Assembly: GCA_027346925.1 (NCBI GenBank)
Contig: DAIERH010000002.1
Span: forward strand, 1-58,362
Source of the DNA: Geobacter sp.
GTDB lineage: Bacteria > Desulfobacterota > Desulfuromonadia > Geobacterales > Pseudopelobacteraceae
Direction: 5' to 3'
Length of the DNA stretch: 58,362 nt
Below, in pieces: positions 3,112 through 57,738 of this stretch. Within the stretch, counting starts at the first letter, position 1. Each line of letters starts with the position of its first letter. Below the pieces are notes generated by a model. The model searched no databases. It was given only the letters and a program-made list of their open reading frames with translations, and had not been told where the DNA came from. The translations under genes and the position numbers were made by a program.

Positions 3112-3128
3112 CTGGCACCTCCGTACCA

Positions 3129-3177
3129 TAACCACTGCATCCACGCCGACCTCCGGCGCGTGATGCGCGGCCCGTTA
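3129..3177 (+). repeat. attC-like site 6 (last of array B)
   Basis: TAACCACTGCATCCACGCC...GGCGCGTGATGCGCGGCCCGTTA; gcatc-C-acg bulge in 5' arm. Confidence 0.75.
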
Positions 3178-4629
3178 CTCAAACAACCCCTTCCCCGAAC
3201 TCCGCCCCTGCCGCCTCATATTCCACTTCACATAAGCCCACTTGGGATCATATCCCCGCCGCTTTGCCAGAGCCTGCAGTTCCTCCAGCGTCTTGCACAT
3301 GCCTTCTTCCCGCTTCTTATCGGCAGCGGCCCGCCGTTCTTCAATCTGCCGAAACCGCTCAACGTCAAGTTCTTCCAGGTCGCCGTCAACCTGCTCGATC
3401 TTGCGGGTGTTTGCCTCATGGAGGTGCCCACAGTAGGGACATTTAGGGCCAGGCGGCAGGTAGACAGCATAGCACTTCTCGCATTGCTTCGTGCGAAGAC
3501 TTTTCTCGGTGTCTGACTTTTTGGTCCGTTTCGCTTCGCCGTCCAGGGACCACTCTATATCGCCGTCTGGATGCCCGAGCAGATGCAGCCCGTGGCGGTC
3601 GACATTGCTGACGTGGTCCAGAATCCAAGCACAGTCCTTGCCAGGGGAAACCCGCAACGTCCGGCCAATCTGCTGCATCACCAGCGACAACGAGGCGGTC
3701 GGGCGTAGTAGGATGCCGGCGGCCACCACCGGAACGTCTGTCCCCTCTGATATCAGGTCGCAACTCGTCAGGACGTTCAGTTGACCATTCCCAAGGGCCG
3801 AAATGCGGTTTTTCCTATCCACGTCCGACATAGTGCCATCGACGGACGTTGCTTGAAACCCGGCGGCCCGGAACTGATCGGCTACATGCTCGGCATGGGC
3901 TACAGAGGCACAGAAGGCAATGGCCGGAGCTCCGCTGCATATCCTCCGATAGTGGTCAACAGCGCAACCCGTGATCACCGGTTTGTCCATGACTGCTGTT
4001 ACTTCGCCTTGTTTGTACTCGCCAAAGCGTTTGTGTAACCCCGACAGGTCGGCGCCAACGGGCGGAGCGTAGATCCTGGGTGGGGACAGGAAACCACGCC
4101 GTATCAACTCCGACATGGGGGGGCCGGCCACCATGGAGTCAAAATGCCCACCGCAATGACGACCAAGCCCGCGGCCATCCATGCGGCACGGAGTGGCGGT
4201 CACGCCTAGTAGCTTCGCTGCCGAGTAATGCCTTATGATCTTGTCCCACGATGCGGCCACGGAGTGATGGCATTCGTCGCTGACGATCAACTGCGGTGCC
4301 GGGTACTTACCCAGCCTTAGCACCAGTGTCTGGACACTGGCAACCTGGACGGGCATAAATGGGTCAGGGGTAAAACTAGGGGCAATGATGCCATGGTGGA
4401 CACTGAGTTCGTGTAGAGCTTCAGAAAATTGTCGGATAAGTTCCTGCCGATGAACAAGAAACCATACACGATTATTCCGTTTTACGGCGCCTTCTGCAAT
4501 GTGACTTGCCACCACGGTCTTGCCCCCGCCTGTACTAAGCTGATACAGCACAGCCTGGTCACCCTGCCGAAAACGATTCCTGATGTGTTGCACGTCGCGG
4601 GATTGGTAATCACGAAGGGCGAATTTCAT
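3175..4629 (-). CDS. DEAD/DEAH-box superfamily II helicase with C-terminal zinc ribbon
   Basis: LRDYQSRDVQHIR...STGGGKTVVA, DECHH, QQIGRTLRV; CEKCYAVYLPPGPKCPYCGH. Confidence 0.9.
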   Translation of the reverse strand: MKFALRDYQSRDVQHIRNRFRQGDQAVLYQLSTGGGKTVVASHIAEGAVKRNNRVWFLVHRQELIRQFSEALHELSVHHGIIAPSFTPDPFMPVQVASVQTLVLRLGKYPAPQLIVSDECHHSVAASWDKIIRHYSAAKLLGVTATPCRMDGRGLGRHCGGHFDSMVAGPPMSELIRRGFLSPPRIYAPPVGADLSGLHKRFGEYKQGEVTAVMDKPVITGCAVDHYRRICSGAPAIAFCASVAHAEHVADQFRAAGFQATSVDGTMSDVDRKNRISALGNGQLNVLTSCDLISEGTDVPVVAAGILLRPTASLSLVMQQIGRTLRVSPGKDCAWILDHVSNVDRHGLHLLGHPDGDIEWSLDGEAKRTKKSDTEKSLRTKQCEKCYAVYLPPGPKCPYCGHLHEANTRKIEQVDGDLEELDVERFRQIEERRAAADKKREEGMCKTLEELQALAKRRGYDPKWAYVKWNMRRQGRSSGKGLFE

Positions 4630-4892
4630 TCGAGATAGTACCCCCGGTCTAGGTTGTTGTCTATGACCTCCTCTCTAGCCAGATCGATGTCCGCACCCCG
4701 GCCGGAGAGTATCCTGTGCAGGGTTTCGGTGCTCTGTTTGACATCCCATGCCTCGGCGGCCGCGTGCTGGAGATTGCCGACCAGAAGCGCGCGGCCCACC
4801 TCCAGAACCTCGGAAAGCAGGTGCCACCACTGGCGCCAGAGGGAATTGGTTACGAATCGGGTGGGAGGGAACTGGTATAAGGGCTTGTTCAC
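4626..4892 (-). CDS. hypothetical protein between helicase and integrase
   Basis: ORF overlapping both neighbours by 4 nt. Confidence 0.6.
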   Translation of the reverse strand: MNKPLYQFPPTRFVTNSLWRQWWHLLSEVLEVGRALLVGNLQHAAAEAWDVKQSTETLHRILSGRGADIDLAREEVIDNNLDRGYYLE

Positions 4893-6052
4893 AGCATGCC
4901 TCCCTGGGCAACGCCGGCCAGGATCTGACAGGCGTCTTCGGCAGGGGTGAGCCCGAGGCGGGCAGCGTGGGCTATGAGCCAGCGCCGGATATCATCGGGC
5001 ACGACTACTTCGATAGCATCTCCAGCGAGACCAAGCAGCCGATCCAGGGGGCTGCGGATGCCAACCGAGCGGGTGAACTGGGTATAGGTTTCGGTGGTCT
5101 TGACGTTGCGATGGCCGAGCATGCGCTGCAGCTGACGAATATCAAGGCCATCTTCGAGCATGTGGGTGGCGAAACTGTGCCGCATGCAGTGGGGCGTGGC
5201 GTGCTTGAGGACATGGGCTTTTCTTCTGGCGATCTGAAATGCCTCCTGCACTGCGGTGACATGGATGTGCGGCCGACCTTGGCTGCCGTCTTCGGCGCTC
5301 CAGCGTGACTGAGCCGGGAAAAGGAACTGCCAACCGAATTCCTTTGATGCTGACCGGTATTTGCGGGCAAGGGCATCCGGCAGTTCTACGCAGCCGAATC
5401 CTTCGGCCAGATCGGCGTCATGGATGCGTTTTGCTTCGGCAATTTGTTCCCGCAGCGGCTCTATGAGCATCTGGGGAATATCGAGTACCCGGGCGGTGCC
5501 ATGTTTGCTCTCGCGGATGTCCAATTTGCCCCGGTCAAGATCCACATCCTTGACTCTGATCTCCAGACAATCGACCTCTACCCGGAGACCACAGCCGTAC
5601 ATGAGGGAGTTGATGAGCCGGTAAACCCCGGTTGAAGCGGTGATGATGCCGCGCACTTCTTCACGGGAGAGGATGACGTACAGATGCTGGGAGCGTTTGG
5701 CCCGGGCAGCGTCGATCTTGCCCGGCTCGGTTTTCAGGACGTTGCGATAGAAGAAGAGCAGGGCGTTGAATGCCTGGTTCTGGGTGCTGGCCGAGACATG
5801 CCGGACCTCGGCCAGATAGGTGAGGTACTTGCGGATGGCGGTTTCAGACACGTCCATGCAATGGGTGCGGTATTTCCAGCAGATAAAGTCGACGGCCCAG
5901 CAGCGGTATGCTTTGCGGGTGGATTTTTTAGAATGATGCAGGGCAAATTCCTTTTCCAAATCTGACAGCCAGACAACAACAGACGGCCTTTTCAGTGTTT
6001 CATTATCCGCTGCATTTCGGTTGTTGTGGTTGTCATTCCGGTATATTGCCAT
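4889..6052 (-). CDS. intI-like: integron-type tyrosine recombinase (IntI-like)
   Basis: Catalytic GLRVE, HCMRHSFATHML, MLGHRNVKTT, YTQF; IntI-specific insert GCVELPDALARKYRSASKEFGWQFLFPAQSRW and C-terminal GIRSPLDRL; start MAIYR with upstream RBS AAGGAG. Confidence 0.92.
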   Translation of the reverse strand: MAIYRNDNHNNRNAADNETLKRPSVVVWLSDLEKEFALHHSKKSTRKAYRCWAVDFICWKYRTHCMDVSETAIRKYLTYLAEVRHVSASTQNQAFNALLFFYRNVLKTEPGKIDAARAKRSQHLYVILSREEVRGIITASTGVYRLINSLMYGCGLRVEVDCLEIRVKDVDLDRGKLDIRESKHGTARVLDIPQMLIEPLREQIAEAKRIHDADLAEGFGCVELPDALARKYRSASKEFGWQFLFPAQSRWSAEDGSQGRPHIHVTAVQEAFQIARRKAHVLKHATPHCMRHSFATHMLEDGLDIRQLQRMLGHRNVKTTETYTQFTRSVGIRSPLDRLLGLAGDAIEVVVPDDIRRWLIAHAARLGLTPAEDACQILAGVAQGGML

Positions 6053-6105
6053 GATTCGCTCCTTTCTGCTTATACAGACCCGGTTGGTGGTGTAATCAAT
6101 GGTTA
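6040..6105 (+). other. attI-like site C (upstream of intI)
   Basis: CTTATACAGACCCGGTTGGTGGTGTAATCAATGGTTA; similar to 53355-53433 and 57659-57736. Confidence 0.65.
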
Positions 6106-6372
6106 TGCCAAATCTTGAAATTCTTCGATGTCGGTGTATTCGGGAACGTACTCCCCGTTTCTGGCTTTGATGCCCTCTTTGACGCCTAAGAGGAATAAAT
6201 TTTCCAGACGGTTCAAGAGTTCCTTGTCGTCCAATGACTTGATGCCACACGCCGCCTTAATTACTGCCATTTTGCAAACGGTCACAAGGTCGCTAGGCTC
6301 ATTCGCCGTACATGACGCGCATGGAGTCCCCCGACAATCGTTCTCACTGTCCAGACCGAAATAACATGCCAT
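6103..6372 (-). CDS. cassette protein, unknown function
   Basis: MACYFGLDSENDCRGTPC...; TAA stop in attI-like GTTA core. Confidence 0.6.
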   Translation of the reverse strand: MACYFGLDSENDCRGTPCASCTANEPSDLVTVCKMAVIKAACGIKSLDDKELLNRLENLFLLGVKEGIKARNGEYVPEYTDIEEFQDLA

Positions 6373-6405
6373 TTTCAACTGCTCCTTTCTGCCACCGAAA
6401 TGGCA

Positions 6406-6453
6406 TAACCAAAAAGATGCACCGTTTGACAACGGTGATCTTCTGGCCCGTTA
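6406..6453 (+). repeat. attC-like site 7
   Basis: TAACCAAAAAGATGCACCGTTTGACAACGGTGATCTTCTGGCCCGTTA; aagat-G-caccgtt / aacggtgatctt. Confidence 0.85.
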
Positions 6454-6466
6454 TAAATCTTGCGCC

Positions 6467-7213
6467 CTATGGCCTTCCGGCCAGCAAGCCCCATGCTCGC
6501 TTGACCAAGAGCGGATTCTGTCCATTTCCAATGGCTTTAAGCCGCTCCATCCCTTCGGCCACTGCATCAGGATTTCGTTTGATTCTGGTGTAATCATCCT
6601 GTGAAAGACCCTCGCAAATTGCTCCTGTATGTTGCCGTCTGAGTGATTCTTCCGCACAAGCGAAGACAACTTTAGAAAAGTCCAAGCTTTCCAACATTGT
6701 GCAGTCGGCCTGAGCAGCGACAATCCAAAGTCGCTCGCCGTTACAGCAACTATCGGTGGCGTAACTTCCCAACACACACCAGTTCGCATCATACCCGCTC
6801 TCGGCCAGGTCTCCGAATATGCGCTGTATGTAGTCGAAAACAAGCAAGCCTGGGACGTTTTCCAAGAGCGCGAATCGTGGTCGTATGATGCGTATGCACT
6901 CGATAGTGGCCGGCCACATGTTGCGGGGGTCGTCTTCGCCCTGTTGGTGCCCGCTGACACTAAATGGCTGGCAGGGGAAACCGGCGCTAAGGACATCAAC
7001 CATTCCCGTATAGCTTGCGGCGTACCCTTCACCAATGAATGCACGGACATCGCAGAAGATGGGGGCATTGTCGAGCAATCCGTCTCTGATTCGCTGTGCT
7101 GTAACTTTCTGGCAGTGTTCGTTCCATTCGACATATCCGCAATGCCTCCAACCAAGTAACTTCGTGCCAAGTATCCCGCCGCCGCTGCCTGTGAATAGTG
7201 ATATTTCCCGCAT
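6467..7213 (-). CDS. DNA cytosine-5 methyltransferase
   Basis: LFTGSGGGILG, GFPCQPFSVSGHQ, ENVPGLL, AIGNGQNP. Confidence 0.9.
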   Translation of the reverse strand: MREISLFTGSGGGILGTKLLGWRHCGYVEWNEHCQKVTAQRIRDGLLDNAPIFCDVRAFIGEGYAASYTGMVDVLSAGFPCQPFSVSGHQQGEDDPRNMWPATIECIRIIRPRFALLENVPGLLVFDYIQRIFGDLAESGYDANWCVLGSYATDSCCNGERLWIVAAQADCTMLESLDFSKVVFACAEESLRRQHTGAICEGLSQDDYTRIKRNPDAVAEGMERLKAIGNGQNPLLVKRAWGLLAGRP

Positions 7214-7255
7214 TCTATGGGCCTCCGGCCCAGCCTTCGGCGGGCGCAAAATTTC

Positions 7256-7307
7256 TAACCAAACGTAGCAGCGGGCGAAAAGCCCCGCCGCTGTACTCAA
7301 GCCGTTA
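7256..7307 (+). repeat. attC-like site 8
   Basis: TAACCAAACGTAGCAGCGGGC...GCCCCGCCGCTGTACTCAAGCCGTTA; gta-G-cagcgg bulge. Confidence 0.85.
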
Positions 7308-7976
7308 TAGGGCTAATTGTAGCTGACTCAGTTCTTGTTCTATCCGTTTGCAAGCCTTCTCAAAATATCCGGCATCCTTTTCAATGCCAATGAAGCGGCG
7401 ACCGGAGCGGATGCAGGCGATTCCAGTTGTGGCACTTCCCATGTACGGATCAAGAACCGTTCCGCCTTCTGGCACCTTTGCCTTTTCGAGGCACCACGCC
7501 ATCAACGGCACCGGTTTCTGTGTGGGGTGCATCCGCGTCAAGGTTTCGCCGGTCAGGGATAAATCACGCTTGCAGTACACCCCATGCCCGCCCTTCATCC
7601 ATGCAATCTCGGCATCAGAGAGAAAGGAGCCGAACGCCTGATCGTACCGCTTAATCCAAACTAACTGCGTCCCCACCGGCACCCGCTGCCCAAAGTGGTT
7701 GACTCCCCACAAAATCACCTTGTCAAAGTTCAGCCAGGGCGAAGGGTCGAACGGCTGATCGTCACCAATAATCGGCGCACCGTTCGCCGTGCCTACATTG
7801 TTCCCGCGCTTCGCAACGCTGGCAGTGTTCCCGCCAGAAAAGCGGCTGTTGTCCGTGTTCAGGTTCATCCCATAGGGCGGGTCAGAAATAACCGCATCCA
7901 CGCAAGAGAGGAGCGGCAGCACGTCGAGGCAATCAGCGTGCCAGAGGGTTACATTTTCAAATTCGACTTTGCGCAT
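7305..7976 (-). CDS. site-specific DNA methyltransferase (N4/N6 type, SDPPYG)
   Basis: VISDPPYGMNL...THPTQKP-like HPTQKPVPL...DPYMGSATTGIA. Confidence 0.88.
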   Translation of the reverse strand: MRKVEFENVTLWHADCLDVLPLLSCVDAVISDPPYGMNLNTDNSRFSGGNTASVAKRGNNVGTANGAPIIGDDQPFDPSPWLNFDKVILWGVNHFGQRVPVGTQLVWIKRYDQAFGSFLSDAEIAWMKGGHGVYCKRDLSLTGETLTRMHPTQKPVPLMAWCLEKAKVPEGGTVLDPYMGSATTGIACIRSGRRFIGIEKDAGYFEKACKRIEQELSQLQLAL

Positions 7977-7994
7977 AAATTCCCTTACGCCCTA

Positions 7995-8047
7995 TAACAA
8001 CGCCTCGCAGCGGGCGATAAGGCCCGCCGCTGAAGGCGCAGCCGTTA
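7995..8047 (+). repeat. attC-like site 9 (VCR-like sequence)
   Basis: TAACAACGCCTCGCAGCGGGCGATAAGGCCCGCCGCTGAAGGCGCAGCCGTTA. Confidence 0.88.
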
Positions 8048-8051
8048 TATT

Positions 8052-8273
8052 CTAGTCGTCTTCATCCTCGTCAGGGAAAACGGCGTCTTCGTCCCAGAAA
8101 CCGCCCTCAGCGAATGCAACATGAATATCAGAGGAGCGATTCATCACCACGATATCGCAACCCTTACCCTCGTACTCCTGATTCAGCTCCAACTCAGGAT
8201 CGAGCAACGACAATTCCCTGATTGCCTCGCCGACAGTTCTAACATTGATGTTCCATTTCCCATTACTGAACAT
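8052..8273 (-). CDS. small acidic cassette protein
   Basis: ORF with C-terminal DEDAVFPDEDEDD. Confidence 0.6.
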   Translation of the reverse strand: MFSNGKWNINVRTVGEAIRELSLLDPELELNQEYEGKGCDIVVMNRSSDIHVAFAEGGFWDEDAVFPDEDEDD

Positions 8274-8307
8274 GGTGCTCCTCCGATCAAAGTTACCCGA
8301 TGGAATA

Positions 8308-8366
8308 TAACCATCGGGTGCTATGGGATGGCGATGAAGCCGCCACCCCAGACCCTCAGGCCGTTA
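8308..8366 (+). repeat. attC-like site 10
   Basis: TAACCATCGGGTGCTATGGG...CCCCAGACCCTCAGGCCGTTA. Confidence 0.75.
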
Positions 8367-8573
8367 TATTTCTAATCCGAATTTTTCCCGAATTGCTTCG
8401 ATTGCCTGATCCCTGTAGATAACCGGCTCATTCTCTTTTGGCGGCTGGAACCAGAATAGTGACAGCAATAAGTCCTCGATTTCCCTTGCAGCCTTTTTCC
8501 GTTCTTCGGCCATCGCGGGGCAGAATGAACAACTATCGTCAGTGCCCCTATTGTCTGTTTCCGAATCTGTCAT
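8364..8573 (-). CDS. small cassette protein
   Basis: ORF; TAA in GTTA core. Confidence 0.55.
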   Translation of the reverse strand: MTDSETDNRGTDDSCSFCPAMAEERKKAAREIEDLLLSLFWFQPPKENEPVIYRDQAIEAIREKFGLEI

Positions 8574-8593
8574 ACTGCCTCCCCAGCGAAATA

Positions 8594-8641
8594 TAACCAG
8601 GAAGATGCAGCCGTTGACACGGCTGATCTCCCAGGCCGTTA
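8594..8641 (+). repeat. attC-like site 11
   Basis: TAACCAGGAAGATGCAGCCGTTGACACGGCTGATCTCCCAGGCCGTTA; agat-G-cagccg / cggctgatct. Confidence 0.85.
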
Positions 8642-8935
8642 GCGGGACAACACCGGCACCTGAATTTCCCGGCGTTCCGCTGTGTACGCTCCGATTGCAA
8701 GGCGTTTGCCGCTGATCGCCACCGCATAGTTTTCAATGGCATCTTCTTCGGTGCGACCGTTGCCATATTCGCCAATTAGACAGCCACCTCGCATTACTTC
8801 AGCCCGTTCAAAGTGGGCATAAAACCGATCATCGGTGTCTCTCGGATGGCGCTCTCTGATTTCCATGGTTAGATTGTACATGTTGGCAAACTCTTCAATG
8901 GTCATCCGGTCAAGATTGTATCGTTTGATTTTCAT
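8639..8935 (-). CDS. cassette protein, unknown
   Basis: ORF; TAA in GTTA core. Confidence 0.6.
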   Translation of the reverse strand: MKIKRYNLDRMTIEEFANMYNLTMEIRERHPRDTDDRFYAHFERAEVMRGGCLIGEYGNGRTEEDAIENYAVAISGKRLAIGAYTAERREIQVPVLSR

Positions 8936-8953
8936 AAACACCCTTTCCGCCGC

Positions 8954-9003
8954 TAACCAGCGGCAGGACGGGCCGAAAAGCCCGCCCGTCAGCCTTATCG
9001 TTA
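8954..9003 (+). repeat. attC-like site 12
   Basis: TAACCAGCGGCAGGACGGGCCGAAAAGCCCGCCCGTCAGCCTTATCGTTA. Confidence 0.8.
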
Positions 9004-9007
9004 TGCC

Positions 9008-9214: not shown

Positions 9215-9260
9215 AACCTCTCCGTTAATCCGCATCTCTACTCCGTGGCCCAAAAAATTA

Positions 9261-9287
9261 TAACTAGCCGCAGCAGACGGACGGTTA
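9261..9287 (+). repeat. very short attC remnant (site 13)
   Basis: TAACTAGCCGCAGCAGACGGACGGTTA. Confidence 0.5.
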
Positions 9288-9557
9288 GTCTGATCTCCTA
9301 CGAATTGCCCTAGCCGCACTCATGCGAACGTCACCACACGGAGAGTTTTCATACCATGTTCCTCCATCGCCGGAGCATCGTCGAGCCGGTTTCCCATCCA
9401 TTGTTATCCTCTCCCCCTCTGCAATGAGAGCGCACTGCTCGCGCTCGATCTCAACCATTTTTCGCCAATAGCATACGTCGCACAGCTCAGAATAGATGCC
9501 CGGTACTCGTCCATGAAGATGTTCATTAATCGCGTACGATCCACATTTGCATTGCAT
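9285..9557 (-). CDS. Cys-containing cassette protein
   Basis: MQCKCGSYAINEHLHG...; TAA in GTTA core. Confidence 0.6.
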   Translation of the reverse strand: MQCKCGSYAINEHLHGRVPGIYSELCDVCYWRKMVEIEREQCALIAEGERITMDGKPARRCSGDGGTWYENSPCGDVRMSAARAIRRRSD

Positions 9558-9576
9558 AAAAACCTCCAAATCTGAC

Positions 9577-9625
9577 TAACCAGGACGCTGGAAATTGCCG
9601 GAGAGGTTCAGCGCCATGGCCGTTA
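9577..9625 (+). repeat. attC-like site 14
   Basis: TAACCAGGACGCTGGAA...TTCAGCGCCATGGCCGTTA; gg-A-cgct-G-gaa / ttcagcgcc. Confidence 0.82.
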
Positions 9626-9631
9626 AACCGA

Positions 9632-9932: not shown

Positions 9933-9951
9933 AGATCCTCCTGAACTGGTT

Positions 9952-10001
9952 TAACCAGGCTATTCCAGCGGCCGGAGCCGCTGAACGCCCGGCCGTCGTT
10001 G
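9952..10001 (+). repeat. attC-like site 15 (right core degenerate GTTG)
   Basis: TAACCAGGCTATTCCAGCGGCCGGAGCCGCTGAACGCCCGGCCGTCGTTG; bulged C in 5' arm. Confidence 0.75.
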
Positions 10002-10012
10002 TACATCTCTAG

Positions 10013-10387: not shown

Positions 10388-10450
10388 CTCCGTTGCACCG
10401 TCCTTTCGATGTACACGGACGCGATGAACCTGCGCCGGTCAGCTTGATTG

Positions 10451-10639
10451 TTATACCAATAATCCTGGCTTGACTTTCAGCGCCTTAGCAATCTTCTTAA
10501 TGCTCCCCAAAGAAACCTTCTCACCATTCTCCGCCTTAGAAATGGTCCCCTGCGTTACCCCGGCCATAACTGCCAGCTCTGTCTGCGACAAAAAACGTTT
10601 TTCCCGGAAATCCTTCAACTTAGTAATCGGTTTGCTCAT
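10451..10639 (-). CDS. XRE-family HTH repressor
   Basis: LKDFREKRFLSQTELAVMAGVTQGTISKAENGEKVSLGSIKKIAKALKV. Confidence 0.85.
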   Translation of the reverse strand: MSKPITKLKDFREKRFLSQTELAVMAGVTQGTISKAENGEKVSLGSIKKIAKALKVKPGLLV

Positions 10640-10726
10640 ATTAGCACCTCCCATTCGGATAGAATCGTAAACTGGACAGCGGGCCGTGTCAATTATTTTT
10701 TATCGTAAAAATATTATTTTTTATTC

Positions 10727-17418: not shown

Positions 17419-20400
17419 TTACTCCCTGATAATCTCAAGATATCGCTCTCGCTCTTCCTGCGTCAGCCCCTTAGAGTTGCGGAACTTCTTCCGGAAAGCC
17501 GGTTTCAACTCCTCCACCACGTCACTCGGGGCATTCTCCATGATGTCGGCCAGCTTGTCAATCTGCATACGCTTGACCTTGGCCATATCCAGGGGGAGCT
17601 TGCCCCGCTGGCCCGGTATGTCGGCCTGTAAAATTTGCCACAAGTTGCGCTGTTCACGGGGGATCTGCTCGTCGCCGGCCATGTCCGTCATCTTGGATAT
17701 CCGGCGAAGGTCGGGCGGAACAAGCAGCGACTCGGCGAACTGGCCGCCCCATTGCCCCGCGCTTTCCGCAGTTCGCATCGCCTCGCCCATCCGAACCGGC
17801 TGTTCAAAGAACGGCACCTCCTCAATTACCCCTTTGGCGCCGGCAAACACCCCAGCCGCCGTGCCGTGCTCCTTACCCTTCTCTGCATAGTGGTCCTCCA
17901 CCCGGCGCAGAGTGGCACCAATCTGCAGCACCTCCAGTGCGGGAGTATGCAGAGCCCACCGTGGCATGTCGACACCAAATACCCGGAGCCCGCCGGCCTT
18001 GACATCGTCCTGCTTGCGGCGTTCGCCCTGCTGATAGTAACCACCGATGGAATCTGCGGCCAGGTAGCCAAGGACCAGTACGGCCGCGCCGATGCCCTGC
18101 TTCTTGAGCGCCCTCATCACGTAATCGGCTTCCTCGGGTTTCAGCCCCTCGATACCTTTGGCGCCGATCACCTTGGCGATAGCCTTGGCTCCGCCTGCAG
18201 CATAGGACAGCGTTTCCGCCACAAAGTTCGTCGGGATCTTCACAATTGGCATGACCATTTGCAGACCGGTAGCCGCCGCCCGGCCGCCAGTCCCTTTGTG
18301 CCGGGCATAGTTGATCAGCATCCGGTACGCCGTCACCATGGCGTTGTCCTGCATGAAGATTGCCCGGTTGGCGTCGACATACGATTCAGCAAACAGAGTC
18401 GCCTGCGTCACCGGGTCGGACACGTCATAGCCGTTCTTCATGTACCACTCGGTGCGTTTCTGCAGCGACCGATTGAACTCGGCACGCTTAGGCATAATCT
18501 TGAGTGCCCCGTGGATGTGACCGAAGAACTCGATAGCCTCGGGCGGCAGATCGTGCTTTTTGCCGTAGAGTCGATCCAGTTCGCCCCGGCCGGTCTTGAT
18601 CACGTCCCAGGCGTCCATGTAGGTCTGTTTGGCGAACCACTGCCGCATGGCCGCAGCCTCAGCCCGGACGTTCAGCCCGCCACCCTCTCGGGGCGCCTTG
18701 GCTGCAATGCGTGAAATGTACGGGGTATGCGACAGAACACCACCCACCAACTCTTCCAGCGGCGTGGTGATCTGCCGCAGAGACGCCGCCGTGGTGAGTT
18801 TGCCGATGGTCTGGGCCCCGGAGAGGATCACCGCTCGGCGCCACTTCACCAGCCAGTCAAGCCCCCTCTGCGCCGCCGTCCGGTTGGCCAGTTCCTGCTT
18901 GCGGATCTCCGTGTTGATGGCTTCCTTCAGCCGCTCCGTCTCGGCCTTCAGTCGGATAGCTTCCGGGTCCATCTTCAGCACGCGTCGGGCCGACTTCTCG
19001 TAGTTGCCCGTGTTCAGCATCTCCTGCAGGTCAGCAATCCGCTTCATCGTCCGGGTCTTGTACGCCTTCAATGCAACCTGTTCCGGGTCAACGGCGGGCT
19101 TTGCGTCCCGCTGCATCTGCTTGTACTGTTCGGCTAGGGCGTCCCGGCGGTCACGGAGTGCCTTCAGTTCGGGCGTCTCGGGAGTCGCAGATGTCTTTTT
19201 GCCAGGCGCTAAGTCGTTTTCCTTGATCCTCCGTGTGTATTCGTCTAGAGACCGCTGTGCGGCATCAGTTGCGGCTTTTACTTGCCGTTCAGTGTCAGCC
19301 ATGAATTTCTTGAGTTGCTGCATTTCTGGCGATTCATCAGGAACTTGCTTCTTCTGCATTTCCTGGTAGGCCTTGCGGAGTTCGTCTCGTTTGGAGCGGA
19401 GACCATCTCTTTTCTTCCGGAGTGCTTGTAGCTCGGGTGTCTCGGGAGGAGTGCTTGTTTTCGGATGTGGCAAGACATCACGGGTCTTTATTTGTCGGTC
19501 GAGTTCTGTAATCGACTTCTCCACCGCATTCGTGGCGATCCTCACCCGCTGCTCGTCGGAGAGCCCCGGTTTGCCCTCGATGTCCTCCAGGGCCTTCTTC
19601 AGCCGGTCCCGTTCGGCCTTCAGCGCGTTGGCCTCTTCGTCGTACTTGAGCCCGATCTTCTTCGGCGTCTTTTTGCCGGTCTTGATCTGCTCGGTGATGT
19701 CGTGAATCTGGTTCCGCAGTCGGGTCTTGGCCGCGTCCAGGGAAGTCTTCCACTGCTCTTCCGGCGTCCGGGTCGACTGGCTGTCAATGCCACTGGCTTT
19801 CATCGCCTCCTTGACCTGGTGCTGCAGGTCGCGGACGGTATCGGAAACCGGGTCACGCTGGAGCCCGGAATGGAGCGGGGGCTGGCCGGCTTCGGCATCC
19901 TCCAGGGCGGAAATCAGCCGCATCTGCCGGCGGGCCTCCCGCATTTCGACCTGGATTTCCTCCTGGCTCATCTTGTAGGAGTGTCCATAGCCGGAGATGG
20001 CGTCCCGGATGTCCCGCTTCTCCAGGTCCGGAATGTCCTTCAACTCTTCGTAGATGTCGTCAATGATGGCCTTGGCGTCGGTGATGCCGGCGATCACCCG
20101 GTTGCGGGCCATTTCCGCTAGGACCACCACTGCTTCCGGGTCGAAGTTCATAGTCAGTTTGTTGGGGGAGAGGATCGACCGGAGTTTCCCAGCCAGTGAC
20201 TTGAATTCCGTGTCCATCGATTTGCGGGCAACGGCCTTCTCTCCGGCCCGCTGCCTCCGGGGGGCGCTGGCTTCCTCGTTGTGGATCTTCGTGACCTTGC
20301 GCTGCGCCTCCAGTTCGGCTATCCGCTCCTCATGTGCCTTGGATTTCGCCATGGCCTCGTCAAGTTGCTTCGTCAGCGCCTCAATCTTGGTGCGGACGGC

Positions 20401-23400
20401 TTCCGGTATCTCCGGCTTACCGATGGCCACCCGTACCCGCTGGATCGACCGCGCCAAGGAGTAATCCTCGGCAATCATCATCTTGCGGGCGGCCAGGCCC
20501 AGCCCCTGTTCGTAACCTGTGCGCCGGGCGGCCTCATCGTTGGTGTTGATGTCGTCTTCGATCTTGGCCAGCCGCTGCCGGTTCTCTGCCAGGGATACCT
20601 GGTCGCCGGCTGCGGTCGCCTTCTCGATCTGCTCCATGACGGCCACATGGTCGTTCTGTAGCCTCATGCGGTCATAGATCAGCGTCACCGACTCCTCAGC
20701 GGACAGGGCGCGGGGCTTCTCTGCCAGTGACGCAGCCAGAAGTCGGGGGTCTACCTGGCCAGAATCCACCAAGGCTTTCCCTCTCTCGAACGCATCCCCG
20801 AATGTGCGCCGGGTTTCGACCTCAACCGGTGACTTGCCGATGGTGTCCCGTTCCTCTTCGGTGACATCGTTCTTGATGCCCGTGGTCCGCTGCTGAGAGG
20901 TCGGCTTGACCGACAGGGGGATGACGTTGCTCTTCTCCGGCCGGATCTGCTTGGCCAGTTCGTCGGCCCGGGCGAGCCACTTCAGGGCGGTTTCCTCGTC
21001 GCCCCTGGTCACCGCCTCGTCGGCCTTGTCGAGGAATTCGTTGTGGCGCCGGATCAGTACCTTGCGAAGGTCATCGCCTTCGGTGGAGCCACGCTCGTTG
21101 CCGACTATGCGCTTGACGTTCTCCCAGGTCGCTTGAATCAGCCCTTTGAAACGGTCCCACAGGTCGCCCAACTTCTCCTTCATGGAGCGGGTGAAGTCCT
21201 GGTATTTGCGGGCACCATCCTCGTAAGCGGCACGGCCTATGGCTTCCAGGTGGGGCATGGCTTCCCGGCCGGATTTGGCGAGTTTGGTGAGTTCCTTCAG
21301 TGCAAGAGGGACAACGGAGGTGATGTCGTAGAGTTCGGTGCCTTTGGGTGTCTGGTGATTGGCTGTCTCGCCTTTCGGTACCTTTAGCGCCTTCATCTCT
21401 GCCGAAAGCGTATGCTCTCTGACCGGCATAACGACCGCCACCGGCCCACCGTTCTCATAGAACAGCACCGGACCCTGTTTGTTGCCGTCGGCATATATCT
21501 CGGCGTTCGGATAGTGCTGTTTGGCATACAGGAAATAATCCTGGTCCACGTATACGTCGGGCTTGCCTTCGACTCTCAGTCGGGCATACGCCTTGTCCGC
21601 CGTGTCGATAGGGTTGCCAGATACGGCCAGCACTTCGCCGTTCTTGCCACCGGCACCAGCCGTGCCGTGCCCGACAAAATCTATATTCTCCACCCTGTCC
21701 AGATTCTTCTTGTCTGGAAGCATCCGGCTTATATCGGGTGGGTTGGCTTTCCATGCTTCATTGCGCTCGTTTACCGTCTTGTCCTTGGACGGCTTTATCT
21801 TGATCTGCGGTTCGCCTTTCACCATGAGATGTCCGGTACCGTGCCACGTTCCCAACTCACCAGTGAAGACCCCAGCCCCTTCCAGTGGGGGGGGCTTCAC
21901 TGTCGTCTGCTTCGGCAGGTTCCCGTATCCGGTTGACTTCGCCTGGGCTTTCTCGGCAGAGGGGAACAGCGTTTCAACCTGCTTCTTGAAGTTCTGGAGT
22001 GCATTCTTGGAGTTGTAAACCTCGAACGTCCCATCGTCAGGGACATGGATTGTCACATAGGCGCTGGCATCGCGGAGTGCCTGTTGTGCTGCCTTTATCT
22101 GTGGCGTAACCCTCTTCATATCAGCATCGGCAACATCATGAGCCGATTGGAATTGGGCTATCATCTCCTGCCGGCGTTCGGGTGTGCTATCCTGGAAATA
22201 CTGAGGATCTTTCCAGAGGTTGAGTTTTGTTCCAGCCTCATCTTTGCGATTGTGAGCATCGGTCAGGGCTCCGCGCAAGTCGCCCAGTTCATTTTGTAGC
22301 TTCATCCGCTCGGGAGTCGGTGCGTCCGGTGCCTCCTTGATTGCATCCTCAATGTTCGCCAAAAGGTACTTCTTCTGTTCCTTGAGGGGCGTTCCTTCCT
22401 TTTTGGCGGTCTTGACGGCTTCGGCCACCACCTCTGCCGGCGTATCCTGCCCCGTCACCCTGGCGGCTTCGTAGTCGGCGCGGGCCTTCCGCGTCTCAAT
22501 GTACCGGGCAAGGTCCATTTTCTCCTGACCGGCGGCCCGTGCCCCTTCATTCGACACTGCCGCCGCAGTCCGCCGCCCACCGCCGTTGAACTCCCGTTCC
22601 CCGGCTTTCTGCAACGATGCAATCTCACCACCCAGCCGTTCAAGGCGCTCCTCCAGTTCAGGGACGGACATTTTGCCGTAACGTCTTTCAAGTTCGGCGT
22701 CCTGTTTGGCGGTCGCTTTGTCAAACCGCTGTTGCTTGGTCAGCCGCTCAGATTCGGGCATCTTGTCATAGGCTGCGCTGGCCCGTTCAATGGCGTCCTC
22801 TTTGGTGTTGGCCGTGAAGAAATTACCCTGTTCGTGGCTGAATTTGTACTTCCACAGGTCGTTACGGGGGTCGTGGTAGAGCAGGCCAGCGTCGATTAAC
22901 GTGTCCTCGCTTACCTCGGATTTCTGAGACATGGCTGACTGTTCCGGCTCCATATCTTGCACCCGCGTGAAATACTCCTCCACCGCCGCGTCGGTCCCCT
23001 TGACCGTCCTGGGCAGTTTCTCCCCGGTCCGGCTGGCGAACTCGGCTCGGAGCCCCTTGTTGTCCATGTGCAGGAGGTCTTTCATCCCGGCGATGTCGCG
23101 GGCGTCCCATGCGGCGTTGAATTTCTCCTGGGCCTTGGGGTGCAGGGCGGTGAACTCAGGGGCGGGCTGTTTGGTCGGTTTCTCCGGGCGGGTGGTGCCG
23201 TCCATGCGGAGGGGGGCGGGCTTCTCGTTCAATGAACCAGATTCTTCCCCCTTCTCCATCTCGATCAGCCTTGCATTCGCCCCAGTCGTCCGCAACTGCG
23301 TCCGGTCCGTAAACGTCCCTTCCGGCAGCTTCTCTTCACTGGCCCCGTTGTCCTCCAGCCACTGTTTGAACTCAGCGTGCTTCTTCTGGTTCCCGAAAGA

Positions 23401-26400
23401 ACCCTCCCCGACGATGGCCACCAGCTTCCCGCCGGGCTTCAGCAACTCGTAAGCGTGCCTTACATGTTCGATGTCGGCGGAAAATGGCGGATTAAGTATT
23501 ACCGAATCGTATATTGCCCCCGGCTCGTAGTCCAAGAAGTCCCGGCCAACCAGGTTGAAGCCCTTCGCCTCCAACACCTCCCGGAGCGGTTCCGAAATCT
23601 CAGCCACGTCCACGTCGGCGCCAGTGTCCCGCATCTTCTCGGCAATGTTGCCAGTCCCGCCGCCGGGCTCCAGCACCTTCATGCCTGGCTTGATCCCGGC
23701 CCGCTCCACCATGTCAGCGGCCACCTCGGGGGGAGTGGGGAAGAAGTCAACGCCCACGTTCTTACCGACCAGTGCCCGTTCAAGCTGCTTTGCCTTGTCG
23801 GCCTTCGGACCCTCGTCTTTGAACTGCAGGTATTCCCGGAGTCCGGCGCGGAGGGTGGGGAGATCCACCAGCCCCATTTTCTGGAGACGCTTGTAGTTCA
23901 CCATCCTGTCGACGGTGTTCTCCACGTCGTACTTGATGTCACGGTTCGTAGTCCCGGCCTTCTTTAAGGCACCTTCCAGCCGTTCTATGTCGACCTGATT
24001 ACGGAACTCCACGCCCCATTCTGGTCCGCCGGGCTCCTTGTACTTCTTCATCAACCAGTCGCCATCACGGACCCCGCCGGGCTTCTGTTGAAGATACTGG
24101 CCGATCTTGCGAAGGTTGTCCCGGTGTGCAGCGGGGTAGGGGTACTCGACATGCTCAATGTCATCGGTATTGGGCGGCCTGTGGCGTTCCTCGGAAACGC
24201 TCCAGCCGTCCTTGCCGTTCTTCTGGAGATTGCGGAACTTGGCCATGTTCAGGATGCTATCCAGCGTCTCCACATGCGTCCCGGCGCTGATCCCTTCGAG
24301 GTGCTTCGCCTCGCCCTCCTGGATAGCCTCTGCAATGTTCCTGATCGTCTTCGCCAGGGCAATCTGCTTGCGGGCGGCATCCTCGGTGCTGTTCGCCTGT
24401 GCGGCACGCTTCGCCGTGTTCGTCAGCCGATCGGCATTCAATACCCCGTTGGCCTTCTCCTCCATGGACTCAGCCAGGGCGGTCAGTCGCTCGGCGGCGT
24501 TCTCCTTCCGCGTCTCCTGCTTCGTCTCGATCCGGTCCTTGACCGCTTCGGTCGCTGCCTCGGTGTCGCCGGTCAGGTACTTCTGGAACGCCTCGGCGTT
24601 CTCCTTGGTCTTGAACTGAAAACCCGGCACGGCACCGCCCTTCGCATAGGACGAGTACCAGCCGCCCAGCCGCTTGGCCGTGGTGTTCCACTCGTTGTAC
24701 ACGTCCCGTTCGACCCGTTCCGCCGTCTTCACCACGAACAGGTCTTCACCGGTCTTCGTGTGCTTCGTCTCCACGATGGACGACTCAACCGTGCCACTGG
24801 CGGCCCGCACTGTCGCCTTGCGTTCGGTCTGCTTGGCCGCTACCTCCTTGTTGTGCTCGGCGTGAAGCTCGTCGTAGAGGTCGCGCTTCTCCTGCGGCAG
24901 GTCCTCGATCTTGTAGCCCAACTGCTTGTACTTCTGGAAGTCCTCCCACGTCTCTGGGTTCTTGATCGCCTTGACGTAGCCCTCCCGGCGCTGGCGGTAC
25001 TCCTCGCGCTGCTGCGCTATCTTCTCAGCGTGGGCCTTCAGGTTTTCCGGCGTGATCCGGTCCACCCGCTTCTGCACCGCCTCGGCCATGGCGTCCTTGC
25101 CCATGCTATAGGAAAGCATACCGTTGCCATCCAGGTAGGCAAAGTCCGTCACCATGTCGTTGTAGACGGCGCTGACGATGGTCGCCTTCTTCTCGCCCTT
25201 GTAGCGGGCGGCACCGAAGCTACCCATACGCTTCAGTAGCTCGGGGATGGTGGACTTGGCCAGTTCGGCCTTGATTGCTTCCTTGTTCTCGCGGAGGGAC
25301 TTGAACGCCTGCTGGACGGTGGCCGGTTCGACTGGCTCACCGTCGGCAAGAACTTTCATGAGGTCGTCATGGGCGGCCGTGGTGTACTGCTCGGGAAGGG
25401 TGTGGGATAGCCTTACTTCTTCTGCTGCGCTTCCGCCTCCAGCTTGTCCAGCACCTGCGTCATCCCGGATGTCTGCGGCTTGTCGTTGGTCGGCTTCTGC
25501 TCTTTCATCAGTTCCTCGACTGTCATTTGCTCCTCCTTCCAGCCATTCCCCTTTGCGGTAGACGACTGTCGCTTTGTTGATCGGCGCCGGAACGGGGCTC
25601 TGGACGTGCAGTGCGTTATCTTTGCCACGTTCGGACGGCACCTGAACAGTAAACTCTCCATGAACGTCAGCCGGCGAGATCCGGTACACAATCAGGTTAT
25701 CGCCATCCTCGGAGTTGTCCAGTACCCGCTTGGCATCCTCCAGGGACGTGGTGAAGGAATGGACCTTGGCGGACTGGCCCTTGGCGAATTGGTGCTTATA
25801 GCCGTCGAAACCGTTGTCCAGCCCGTTGCCGATGCTCTTGATGTTGGCGACCCGGTAAAGATTGCCGTCACCATACTTATCGACATAAGCCTGAATATCT
25901 TGAGCGGTGGCGTGATAATATTTTCCCTTTTCGGCTTTCGAGGGGGTGAGCTTGGCGGTGTCGGCTGGCAATTTCTCCTTGGTGATTGCCTGGGGTTCGA
26001 AGGTGCGCTTTATTTCTCCCCTGCCTGCCTCATCGCCGCCGCTACCGCTTGCCGGTGCGCCTGCTTCCGGCTTTCTGGCTGGCTGTTGCCGATCTTGCCC
26101 GTCTGGTCGAATTTCGCCATCATTTCCCGGATGTTCTGTGACACCACCCGGTTGGATTTGCCCTTCCTCAACGGCATTCTGTACCTCCTCTGTTGCAGCG
26201 TTCAAGTCCTGGCTGTGCAGCTCCCCGGCCGCTCCCTCTCCGTTCTCCTTCACCCATGCGTCGTACAGTTCGGGCTGATTCTGCTTCATCCAGTCCTTGG
26301 CTTCAGCGCGGGTCATGAACTCGCCATCGCCAGCCACAAAGCCGCGCTCGTGGTCTGGACCGATGCCGTTGGCGTCGATTATCTCGGGGTGGGTTGATCC

Positions 26401-27597
26401 CGGGGCACCAACAATGGTGTCGTTTCCTTCTCGAATAGCTGGGCGGAGGGTGTCGGCTGGCGTGGCGGGTTCCTCCTCGGGCGCGACAGTCTCAACCGAT
26501 TTTCCTTTTCCCTGTTCCTGATCACTGGGGGGGGCTCCTTCCTCGTCTTCGATGACAAACCGGCGGCTCTTGATCTGCTCTGCCAGGTCACTTGCCTTCG
26601 GTTTTTCTTCTGGGGTGTACGGTAACTGCTTCTGTTCGACCGGTGCCGGCGCGGTGGGCTTATCCTTTGCCACAACAGGCTTCGGCTGCGTCCTCGGTGG
26701 CATGGTGCGCTCTTGTGCTATTGGCGCTTCCGGTGCCACACCTTCAACGGCCATCCTCTTCTTGAGTGCAGCCTGAAAGCTCTCCGGGTCAAGGCGGGCA
26801 ATTTTTGCCTCTGCCTCCCCCTCGCTCATGCCGTTTTTGACCAGTCCGGCCCTAACGTCGTCGATGCTCTGGATGACCAACCCGCGCTCTCTGTTGGTCA
26901 TCATCCGCCACCAGTCAGAGTTGCGGACGGCGCCGGGGATCTCCGTGGCACCAGTGAGCAAGCCTGCGCTGGCACCGCCTACAATTGCCTCGTCAGCTAT
27001 ATCCCGGCCAGAATTTGACGCCTCAGTCGCCCCAACAATGCTGCCGGTCGCCGCCTGGGTGACAATACGACCGATCCTCCCGGCATTAGCAAGGCCGAAC
27101 GTGGCATTGACAGCACTGGCGATGCCTTCCCATGGGGCGATCACGCCAGCAAATTGGCCAGCGACTTCTGCGCCCTTGCTCGGGGTTAACCCGATTGACG
27201 GCATGGCTTCGGTAGCCTTGTCTATCTGCTTTCCGGCCAAACCAAGGGTAAGCCCACGGGCGACCCCCATTGAGCCGCTCACTGCCATACCACCCAATTC
27301 GCTGGCAGCCTGCCGTGTTTCTTCCGGAGTCTTGAATACACGACGCCCGCCAGATATGCCCATCACGTCGCGGGCAGAACTTAATGGCGTGACTCTGGTC
27401 GGTGAGAATACCCGCTGGTATGTGGGTTGTGCTTGTTGTTGGGGCTGCAGTGACTGCTGAGGTGGTTGCTGCACCGGTTGCTGTTGGGGAGGGGATGTAG
27501 CCGGCTCATCTTCAATGACAAACCGGCTGCTGGATATGGGTGCACGGGCTGGGGGTGTGTTTTCGGCGTCGTCCTCAATTACAAACCGACCGGCCAT
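17419..27597 (-). CDS. giant polyvalent virion-associated protein with SAM-dependent methyltransferase domain
   Basis: 3392 aa; DFFPTPPEVAADMVERAGIKPGMKVLEPGGGTGNIAEKM...VILNPPFSADIEH; RFVIED motifs; long coiled coil. Confidence 0.8.
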   Translation of the reverse strand: MAGRFVIEDDAENTPPARAPISSSRFVIEDEPATSPPQQQPVQQPPQQSLQPQQQAQPTYQRVFSPTRVTPLSSARDVMGISGGRRVFKTPEETRQAASELGGMAVSGSMGVARGLTLGLAGKQIDKATEAMPSIGLTPSKGAEVAGQFAGVIAPWEGIASAVNATFGLANAGRIGRIVTQAATGSIVGATEASNSGRDIADEAIVGGASAGLLTGATEIPGAVRNSDWWRMMTNRERGLVIQSIDDVRAGLVKNGMSEGEAEAKIARLDPESFQAALKKRMAVEGVAPEAPIAQERTMPPRTQPKPVVAKDKPTAPAPVEQKQLPYTPEEKPKASDLAEQIKSRRFVIEDEEGAPPSDQEQGKGKSVETVAPEEEPATPADTLRPAIREGNDTIVGAPGSTHPEIIDANGIGPDHERGFVAGDGEFMTRAEAKDWMKQNQPELYDAWVKENGEGAAGELHSQDLNAATEEVQNAVEEGQIQPGGVTEHPGNDGEIRPDGQDRQQPARKPEAGAPASGSGGDEAGRGEIKRTFEPQAITKEKLPADTAKLTPSKAEKGKYYHATAQDIQAYVDKYGDGNLYRVANIKSIGNGLDNGFDGYKHQFAKGQSAKVHSFTTSLEDAKRVLDNSEDGDNLIVYRISPADVHGEFTVQVPSERGKDNALHVQSPVPAPINKATVVYRKGEWLEGGANDSRGTDERAEADQRQAADIRDDAGAGQAGGGSAAEEVRLSHTLPEQYTTAAHDDLMKVLADGEPVEPATVQQAFKSLRENKEAIKAELAKSTIPELLKRMGSFGAARYKGEKKATIVSAVYNDMVTDFAYLDGNGMLSYSMGKDAMAEAVQKRVDRITPENLKAHAEKIAQQREEYRQRREGYVKAIKNPETWEDFQKYKQLGYKIEDLPQEKRDLYDELHAEHNKEVAAKQTERKATVRAASGTVESSIVETKHTKTGEDLFVVKTAERVERDVYNEWNTTAKRLGGWYSSYAKGGAVPGFQFKTKENAEAFQKYLTGDTEAATEAVKDRIETKQETRKENAAERLTALAESMEEKANGVLNADRLTNTAKRAAQANSTEDAARKQIALAKTIRNIAEAIQEGEAKHLEGISAGTHVETLDSILNMAKFRNLQKNGKDGWSVSEERHRPPNTDDIEHVEYPYPAAHRDNLRKIGQYLQQKPGGVRDGDWLMKKYKEPGGPEWGVEFRNQVDIERLEGALKKAGTTNRDIKYDVENTVDRMVNYKRLQKMGLVDLPTLRAGLREYLQFKDEGPKADKAKQLERALVGKNVGVDFFPTPPEVAADMVERAGIKPGMKVLEPGGGTGNIAEKMRDTGADVDVAEISEPLREVLEAKGFNLVGRDFLDYEPGAIYDSVILNPPFSADIEHVRHAYELLKPGGKLVAIVGEGSFGNQKKHAEFKQWLEDNGASEEKLPEGTFTDRTQLRTTGANARLIEMEKGEESGSLNEKPAPLRMDGTTRPEKPTKQPAPEFTALHPKAQEKFNAAWDARDIAGMKDLLHMDNKGLRAEFASRTGEKLPRTVKGTDAAVEEYFTRVQDMEPEQSAMSQKSEVSEDTLIDAGLLYHDPRNDLWKYKFSHEQGNFFTANTKEDAIERASAAYDKMPESERLTKQQRFDKATAKQDAELERRYGKMSVPELEERLERLGGEIASLQKAGEREFNGGGRRTAAAVSNEGARAAGQEKMDLARYIETRKARADYEAARVTGQDTPAEVVAEAVKTAKKEGTPLKEQKKYLLANIEDAIKEAPDAPTPERMKLQNELGDLRGALTDAHNRKDEAGTKLNLWKDPQYFQDSTPERRQEMIAQFQSAHDVADADMKRVTPQIKAAQQALRDASAYVTIHVPDDGTFEVYNSKNALQNFKKQVETLFPSAEKAQAKSTGYGNLPKQTTVKPPPLEGAGVFTGELGTWHGTGHLMVKGEPQIKIKPSKDKTVNERNEAWKANPPDISRMLPDKKNLDRVENIDFVGHGTAGAGGKNGEVLAVSGNPIDTADKAYARLRVEGKPDVYVDQDYFLYAKQHYPNAEIYADGNKQGPVLFYENGGPVAVVMPVREHTLSAEMKALKVPKGETANHQTPKGTELYDITSVVPLALKELTKLAKSGREAMPHLEAIGRAAYEDGARKYQDFTRSMKEKLGDLWDRFKGLIQATWENVKRIVGNERGSTEGDDLRKVLIRRHNEFLDKADEAVTRGDEETALKWLARADELAKQIRPEKSNVIPLSVKPTSQQRTTGIKNDVTEEERDTIGKSPVEVETRRTFGDAFERGKALVDSGQVDPRLLAASLAEKPRALSAEESVTLIYDRMRLQNDHVAVMEQIEKATAAGDQVSLAENRQRLAKIEDDINTNDEAARRTGYEQGLGLAARKMMIAEDYSLARSIQRVRVAIGKPEIPEAVRTKIEALTKQLDEAMAKSKAHEERIAELEAQRKVTKIHNEEASAPRRQRAGEKAVARKSMDTEFKSLAGKLRSILSPNKLTMNFDPEAVVVLAEMARNRVIAGITDAKAIIDDIYEELKDIPDLEKRDIRDAISGYGHSYKMSQEEIQVEMREARRQMRLISALEDAEAGQPPLHSGLQRDPVSDTVRDLQHQVKEAMKASGIDSQSTRTPEEQWKTSLDAAKTRLRNQIHDITEQIKTGKKTPKKIGLKYDEEANALKAERDRLKKALEDIEGKPGLSDEQRVRIATNAVEKSITELDRQIKTRDVLPHPKTSTPPETPELQALRKKRDGLRSKRDELRKAYQEMQKKQVPDESPEMQQLKKFMADTERQVKAATDAAQRSLDEYTRRIKENDLAPGKKTSATPETPELKALRDRRDALAEQYKQMQRDAKPAVDPEQVALKAYKTRTMKRIADLQEMLNTGNYEKSARRVLKMDPEAIRLKAETERLKEAINTEIRKQELANRTAAQRGLDWLVKWRRAVILSGAQTIGKLTTAASLRQITTPLEELVGGVLSHTPYISRIAAKAPREGGGLNVRAEAAAMRQWFAKQTYMDAWDVIKTGRGELDRLYGKKHDLPPEAIEFFGHIHGALKIMPKRAEFNRSLQKRTEWYMKNGYDVSDPVTQATLFAESYVDANRAIFMQDNAMVTAYRMLINYARHKGTGGRAAATGLQMVMPIVKIPTNFVAETLSYAAGGAKAIAKVIGAKGIEGLKPEEADYVMRALKKQGIGAAVLVLGYLAADSIGGYYQQGERRKQDDVKAGGLRVFGVDMPRWALHTPALEVLQIGATLRRVEDHYAEKGKEHGTAAGVFAGAKGVIEEVPFFEQPVRMGEAMRTAESAGQWGGQFAESLLVPPDLRRISKMTDMAGDEQIPREQRNLWQILQADIPGQRGKLPLDMAKVKRMQIDKLADIMENAPSDVVEELKPAFRKKFRNSKGLTQEERERYLEIIRE

Positions 27598-49052: not shown

Positions 49053-49241
49053 CTATGTCGCCAGCATCATCTTGAGCACCCGGTTGAACTCGTCAATCCT
49101 GCGGGCAAACCGTGCTCTGCTGGCCGTAAAAATAAACCGTTCCCTCGCTCCTGGCAACTGGTTTTTGCCCATGTCGCGGTAATACCGCTTCGGGAGCTTA
49201 TGGTGTCGGTACCAGTCGGCGTAGATTATCTTGATCGCCAT
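49053..49241 (-). CDS. small hypothetical protein
   Basis: ORF overlapping TerL. Confidence 0.45.
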   Translation of the reverse strand: MAIKIIYADWYRHHKLPKRYYRDMGKNQLPGARERFIFTASRARFARRIDEFNRVLKMMLAT

Positions 49242-53354: not shown

Positions 53355-53433
53355 GGCATATTCTCTGCATTTTCTGCCTTTACCGCTACTTATCCACTTA
53401 TCCCCGCCAGCATGGCGGTATAATCAATGGTTA
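53355..53433 (+). other. attI-like site A
   Basis: GGCATATTCTCTGC...TTATCCACTTATCCCC...GGTATAATCAATGGTTA. Confidence 0.6.
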
Positions 53434-53452
53434 TAGTGCTCTATGCACAGTG

Positions 53453-53970: not shown

Positions 53971-53989
53971 AAATCCTCCTTTCGCACTA

Positions 53990-54046
53990 TAACCAGTGGC
54001 CGGACGCCGCCCGATGAAGCCCGGCGGGTCAGCCACAGGCCCGTTA
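53990..54046 (+). repeat. attC-like site 16
   Basis: TAACCAGTGGCCGGACGCCGCCCGATGAAGCCCGGCGGGTCAGCCACAGGCCCGTTA. Confidence 0.85.
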
Positions 54047-54475: not shown

Positions 54476-54486
54476 AAAATCCTCGC

Positions 54487-57736: not shown

Positions 57737-57738
57737 GA

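Follow-up and report, generated by a model that had tools for sequence, protein, structure and literature searches.

Known integrons and the phage locus

Integrons of bacterial chromosomes and mobile elements, for which IntI1 and VchIntIA (IntI4) serve as reference points here, possess an integrase of the IntI family, an attI site adjoining intI, attC sites with the arrangement R''-L''-L'-R' and an extra base in L'', cassette boxes that are chained from one site to the next, and an intI gene that is transcribed away from attI. The extra base in the L'' arm fixes the polarity of attC. Within integron arrays, each R' box is the complement of the R'' box in the following attC, because both come together in the free circular cassette. 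All of these features are shared by the locus described here. Unlike chromosomal and mobile integrons, however, the locus resides on phage genomes, its cassette genes are reversed relative to attC and attI, it possesses three attI-like sites, its integrase carries a ribbon-helix-helix (RHH)-like C-terminal extension, and its arrays are interleaved with phage replication genes.

Integrons on phage genomes are the subject of one paper found in our search of the literature (Qi et al. 2023, PMC9892861); preprints and most subscription papers were outside the search, and priority is uncertain. The integrons of that study likewise comprise IntI, attI and attC on phage genomes, and include methyltransferase cassettes. 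The complete examples resemble host integrons, being a subset of a Vibrio array or class 1 integrons on P1, and a Shewanella-phage IntI is 95% identical to that of S. oneidensis. In contrast, the lineage described here stands apart as a phage-associated IntI clade whose attI is its own and whose cassettes are reversed. The 'atypical' integrons of Treponema (PMC3607928) resemble the phage locus in that intI and the cassette genes are transcribed in the same direction, but there intI is transcribed toward attI, whereas in the phage integron intI points away from attI and it is the genes inside the cassettes that are flipped. Two features in particular set the phage locus apart from known integrons, the reversed cassette genes and, in a 13-member subclade, the RHH-like C-terminus of the integrase.

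The phage genome

The window, by which we mean the whole 58,362-nucleotide stretch of DNA analysed, is a single contig from a draft genome (G000:C222). Its genes for both terminase subunits (large and small), the portal, the major head protein, a primase, an annealing protein of the RecT type and an internal virion protein identify this 58-kb contig as the genome of a tailed phage. On the minus strand are the genes for the terminase large subunit (49226-50701; phrog_2/phrog_5653, with phrog_31467 also assigned), the portal protein (45943-48156; phrog_156, 1e-149) and the major head protein (42975-44078; phrog_334, 1e-104). A phage helicase (3175-4629, minus; phrog_16 DNA helicase) lies downstream of intI and bounds array 2, and a phage primase (54533-57196, minus; phrog_35358 DNA primase) bounds array 3. 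At its start the contig has an R' box, and its end falls within an attC; since each of these chains with its neighbour, the genome is inferred to be probably circular and split within an attC. In the rest of the draft genome no other IntI was found, the only matches to the integrase being partial and limited to the catalytic domain. Among the virion genes, positions 17419-27597 form a single ORF of 3392 aa.

An integrase of the IntI class

The intI ORF (4889-6052, minus strand) starts with an ATG at 6052, preceded by AAAGGAG, and ends with a stop codon at 4889-4891, encoding 387 aa. The ORF scores 316 bits against the NCBIfam model TIGR02249 'integron integrase' (curated cut-off 265) in an end-to-end match over residues 29-339, whereas the XerC and XerD models score far under their own cut-offs. 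The closest solved structure by sequence is IntI4 (2a3v; E 1.4e-57), which is also the best structural match of an AlphaFold (AF2) monomer model with a mean pLDDT of 85.6 (E 6.9e-24, TM 0.72 over the query). Residues R157, K183, H288, R291, H314 and Y323 align with R135, K160, H267, R270, H293 and Y302 of IntI4, and by this alignment all six catalytic residues are intact in the phage integrase. The IntI insert is also present, with W241 corresponding to W219 of IntI4, and the EVDC stretch has a one-residue insertion relative to IntI4 that is common to the phage clade. By curated model, structure and phylogeny, the gene encodes a genuine integrase of the IntI class; that the protein is an active recombinase is an inference from its sequence.

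A preliminary description of the gene had placed it in the IntI class, as opposed to ordinary phage integrases, and this assignment held in three analyses: the model search, the AlphaFold comparison and a phylogeny, which places the integrase among IntI proteins and apart from Xer, in a tree without generic phage integrases. The R/H-x-x-R/H/Y residues and IntI-specific insertion claimed there are borne out by the six catalytic residues and the insert with W241, and every motif that it quoted, including GIRSPLD and SKHGTARV, is found in the ORF. The last of these was said to replace GKGxKDR, as a sign of divergence; the motif is present but still holds the catalytic lysine, since K183 aligns with K160 of IntI4. 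The claim of a C-terminal extension of ~45 aa was correct, the extension being kept in 12 relatives, as was that of a divergent lineage, in the form of a 13-member clade inside a 20-member phage clade among IntIs. What the description missed was the phage-borne nature of the lineage, the attC cassette arrays and attI sites, and the RHH-like character of the extension.

A clade of phage-borne integrases

Relatives were sought in viral contigs and a species-level genome set. Twelve have the C-terminal extension, and seven more, at about 50% identity, lack it. In a tree of 95 sequences, the 13 extended integrases form one clade (support 100/99) that nests in the 20-member clade (100/95), placed among IntI proteins. 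The deep branches of this tree are poorly resolved, and the Xer sequences fall elsewhere, on long unstable branches. Members of the 20-member clade come only from viral contigs or from MAG contigs with phage genes. The integrase and attI are found again in about 20 phage contigs, many with cassette arrays, and throughout the clade both the intI ORF and attI are conserved. In the INPHARED phage set, the best relative of the integrase is 40% identical. A second scan, with the L155 integrase, returned no more close RHH-bearing members.

The terminases found beside clade integrases include phrog_15 in L007, L009, L150, L159 and L162, phrog_38 in L008, and phrog_5909/phrog_2 in L070. Because these belong to several unrelated families, we infer that the integrase module has moved between unrelated phages. 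More distant integrases (47%) on the phage contigs L233 (3637-4722) and L235 (2714-3805) have the same attI core, TAACTACTGATTATCCCGCAA, and the lineage is therefore wider than the 20 members of the tree. The IntI of complete genome G156, considered as a prophage-borne candidate, was rejected as it belongs to an ordinary cellular integron.

The C-terminal extension

Residues ~345-387 form an extension that is common to the 13 members. A profile of the extension is weakly similar to VapB/FitA-type ribbon-helix-helix proteins (PDB 3h87 chain C, E 0.011), and the Pfam model PF22513 (FitA-like RHH) matches three of the 13 members, also weakly (best 0.0023). In the AF2 monomer, an extended stretch is followed by helices at 353-366 and 370-382, placed as such a fold would require, but without a strand. 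The extension is thus likely to be a ribbon-helix-helix domain, with the reservation that sequence support is weak and that the monomer lacks the strand; its function is open. What it shares with the FitA/VapB-like antitoxins is the weak profile similarity over the C-terminal ~40 residues and the helix-helix pattern of the model, but unlike those proteins it is fused to a recombinase, and no toxin partner gene was identified. C-terminal matches to the extension in L165-L167 were discarded, the tblastn alignment having run beyond the stop codon.

attI sites

The site directly upstream of intI, attI1 (6064-6108), has the R box GTTATGC (6102-6108) and a layout common to 18 relatives. Over these 19 contigs, the sequence upstream of intI reads NNNTAAC, then a short inverted box (in most cases TGATTAT or ATTATC), and then a second TA-rich box ahead of the ribosome-binding site. 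In 11 of the 12 contigs compared, the R box of attI and the R'' of the first attC agree exactly. Two further copies in the window, each at the head of its own array, are attI-like: attI2 (57695-57739; R box GTTAGAT at 57733-57739) has the TAACCATTGATTACAC repeat, and the homology of its first cassette to L069 stops at the site, while attI3 (53392-53436; R box GTTATAG at 53430-53436) has the TAACCATTGATTATAC repeat, its R box being complementary to the R'' box CTATAAC at 53987. The attI assignments rest on conservation, sequence and position alone, in the absence of recombination data. A scan of viral contigs with the attI word alone was unspecific, and the contigs that it returned were reused as a background set.

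attC sites and their chaining

Fifteen clear attC-type sites lie in the leftward early operon, along with a few degenerate or cut ones and the three attI-like sites. All of the attC sites given here are on the plus strand. Array 1 begins after attI1 with sites at 6403-6456 (hairpin z -3.7), 7253-7310 (covariance model, 14.7 bits), 7992-8050 (18.9 bits; hairpin z -3.3), 8305-8369 (10.5 bits), 8591-8644 (hairpin z -5.2) and 8951-9006 (12.8 bits), all but the third of which are listed on the basis of direct search and a chain test. It continues with a short, degenerate site at 9258-9290, whose R' box GTTAGTC complements GACTAAC, the R'' of the site that follows, a site at 9574-9628 (direct search, with the boxes read in the sequence), and a site with the variant R' box GTTGTAC at 9949-10004, whose R'' GTTTAAC is complementary to the R' GTTAAAC at 9622. 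The array ends in a degenerate attC-like element (10411-10456) that is 93% identical to attC sites of L150 and L157. Array 2 comprises sites at 386-448, 943-1014, 1575-1634 (17.6 bits; 95% identical to an L158 attC), 2390-2444 (18.5 bits), 2855-2916 and 3126-3180 (11.5 bits), the R' box of the final site containing the stop codon of the helicase gene. In array 3, the sites are at 53987-54049 (95% identical to an L008 attC) and 54484-54538, where the R' box contains the primase stop codon. All sites of arrays 2 and 3 were found by direct search and the chain test. The 33-bp element at 9258-9290 has both R boxes and hardly any stem, and is possibly a collapsed attC. A small ORF resembling helix-turn-helix repressors (10451-10654) opens the leftward operon and is a candidate regulator of the cassettes in it.

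A first attC scanner, with strict RYYYAAC/GTTRRRY rules, returned nothing above threshold in the window. The window sites use NNNTAAC/GTTANNN boxes, and were recovered by a covariance model and the chain test. The model was built from 40 sites beside other IntI genes, mostly cellular IntI loci. Its eight top-scoring window matches all fall on the plus strand, which relative to intI is the canonical one, and seven of the ten best are array sites. Individually, these seven are weak (E 0.016-2.3). In contigs of the phage clade, all 12 matches are in the canonical orientation and upstream of intI, whereas 388 kb of other viral contigs gave no match at E up to 10. The direct search of the window yielded 15 attC-type elements on the plus strand and none on the minus strand, compared with 1.2 in shuffles. 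The sites cluster densely in 1-10.5 kb, and the stretch from 10.5 to 53.4 kb has none.

The polarity and chaining of the sites are likewise those of attC. Of the 15 window sites, 14 carry the extra base of the L'' arm on the canonical side and one is a tie; for the clade, the count is 32 of 35 sites. The window has 10 exact chains between the R' box of one element and the R'' box of the next, for instance GTTAGAT/ATCTAAC, GTTATGC/GCATAAC and GTTATAG/CTATAAC, while R'' and R' within one element are mostly mismatched and pair only partially. Chained arrays are also present in L007, L008, L069, L070, L150, L157, L159 and L160, and no R-box chain was found in 730 kb of other viral contigs. Degeneracy or poor folding as an isolated strand affects some window sites, and the case for attC stands on the number, orientation and chaining of the sites, not on single matches.

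Cassette contents, boundaries and orientation

The cassettes are mostly single-gene, bounded by attC, within the leftward early operon. On the minus strand, they encode a Dam-type DNA methyltransferase (443-928; PF05869), a C5 cytosine DNA methyltransferase (6467-7300; PF00145), an N6/N4 DNA methyltransferase (7305-7976; PF01555), a protein of no assigned function (1629-2357), and a product that by homology is shared with L069 and L159 (57739-58278). Window cassettes also encode YopX and proteins of no assigned function, and those of relatives include N6/N4 methyltransferases and one NADAR protein. PADLOC recognised the methyltransferases alone; an anti-restriction role for them is plausible, but remains an inference.

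Homologous cassettes in different phages lose their similarity exactly at the predicted crossover, a result that is shown for the sequences, the crossover itself being inferred. For instance, the window and L069 cassettes share 79% identity in the 200 nt that lead up to TAA^C, falling to 50% beyond, where the window has attI and L069 has attC. Similar breaks across TAA^C are seen between L010 and L151 (84% then 52%) and between L149 and L159 (79% then 51%). Many other matches between phages cover nothing but the attC (56-61 bp, 85-98% identity).

The genes are opposite to attC in 17 of 17 window cassettes and in 28 of 30 cassettes of the phage clade, with sites from a relaxed search, as against 6 of 31 chained cassettes of cellular integrons, where the longest ORF runs with attC in the remaining 25 (sites of the first scanner). 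The usual integron trait of cassette genes oriented with attC is thus unmet in the phage clade, although, given the cellular exceptions, the trait is not strictly defining. The 3' ends of the cassette genes point toward attI, and in most cassettes the TAA stop codon is within the R box. Because of this orientation, expression from a Pc promoter in the intI/attI region is unlikely in the phage integron, and an upstream phage promoter would have to express the cassette genes.

A probable phage-native integron and alternative explanations

The gene is very likely the integrase of a phage-native integron, a mechanism that is inferred from sequence, no recombination having been observed. IntI would fold and cut the bottom strand of attC (here the minus strand) at G^TT and join it to attI, by which phages would capture, lose and swap early genes. 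As cassette genes are opposite to attC, an inserted gene would end with TAA inside the R box of attI or attC and bring its own ribosome-binding site. It would be co-directional with intI, and an upstream phage early promoter would replace the usual Pc, although no array promoter was identified. The RHH-like C-terminus would dimerise and bind DNA, an inference without binding data, and might act either at attI, with a part in directing synapsis, or as an autoregulator of the operon.

One alternative is that the gene is an ordinary lysogeny integrase from the IntI branch, and that terminators or processing sites account for the hairpins that separate early genes. Tyrosine recombinases often serve lysogeny, no second integrase was noticed in the window, and the repressor-like ORF at 10451-10654 would fit such a role. 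However, simple stem-loops should pair with themselves, whereas here the exact pairing of R boxes is from one element to the next and that inside an element is only partial, the attC-type orientation and position of the extra base are maintained, and homologous cassettes break at the predicted crossover; this explanation is very unlikely, and is largely refuted by the chaining and the cassette boundaries. It is also very unlikely that a bacterial integron was passively captured by a phage, for which there is precedent in the documented captures by Vibrio, Shewanella and P1 phages (Qi et al. 2023, PMC9892861). Against it are the confinement of the integrase clade to viral contigs or MAG contigs with phage genes, the several unrelated terminase families, a cassette gene orientation unlike that of cellular integrons, and the lack of another IntI match in the host bin.

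Less easily dismissed, but still unlikely, is the possibility that the arrays are relics of old cassette entry, which the integrase no longer moves. Several attC sites are degenerate, cassettes shared between phages are just 75-84% identical, and the attC-only matches with differing neighbour genes could be old events. On the other hand, the integrase has retained every catalytic residue, the clade as a whole has kept its intI ORFs and attI, and most pairs of R boxes still chain exactly.

The reading of a phage-native integron can be extended to a bolder one that we consider likely: a viral integron lineage across unrelated tailed phages, with flipped cassette polarity and early promoters in place of Pc, several attI per genome as insertion points between core genes, an added RHH domain, and a shared exchange of early genes that includes likely anti-restriction methyltransferases. 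What the sequences suggest is a phage family that trades genes such as DNA methyltransferases via its own integron, built unlike bacterial ones. Phage mosaicism is usually ascribed to homologous or illegitimate recombination. A dedicated site-specific cassette system in phage early operons would, if the extended reading is true, add a further driver of phage evolution and might let genes pass between phages and bacterial integrons. It also prompts the question of whether viruses were the origin of some integron cassettes and IntI features. The phage integron also provides a natural test of attC polarity against gene expression.

Other IntI-bearing viral contigs

IntI-bearing viral contigs with matches to the attC model also occur outside the phage clade (L023, L032, L168, L183, L179 and others), some of which may be host integrons or other phage integrons. 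In the case of L004 (Virus Rctr41k, KX853513.1), a phage from a methane-oxidising enrichment, an IntI-like integrase is present at 4680-5678, and a simple scanner gave two attC-like matches downstream of it, at ~6641-8545, without covariance-model support.
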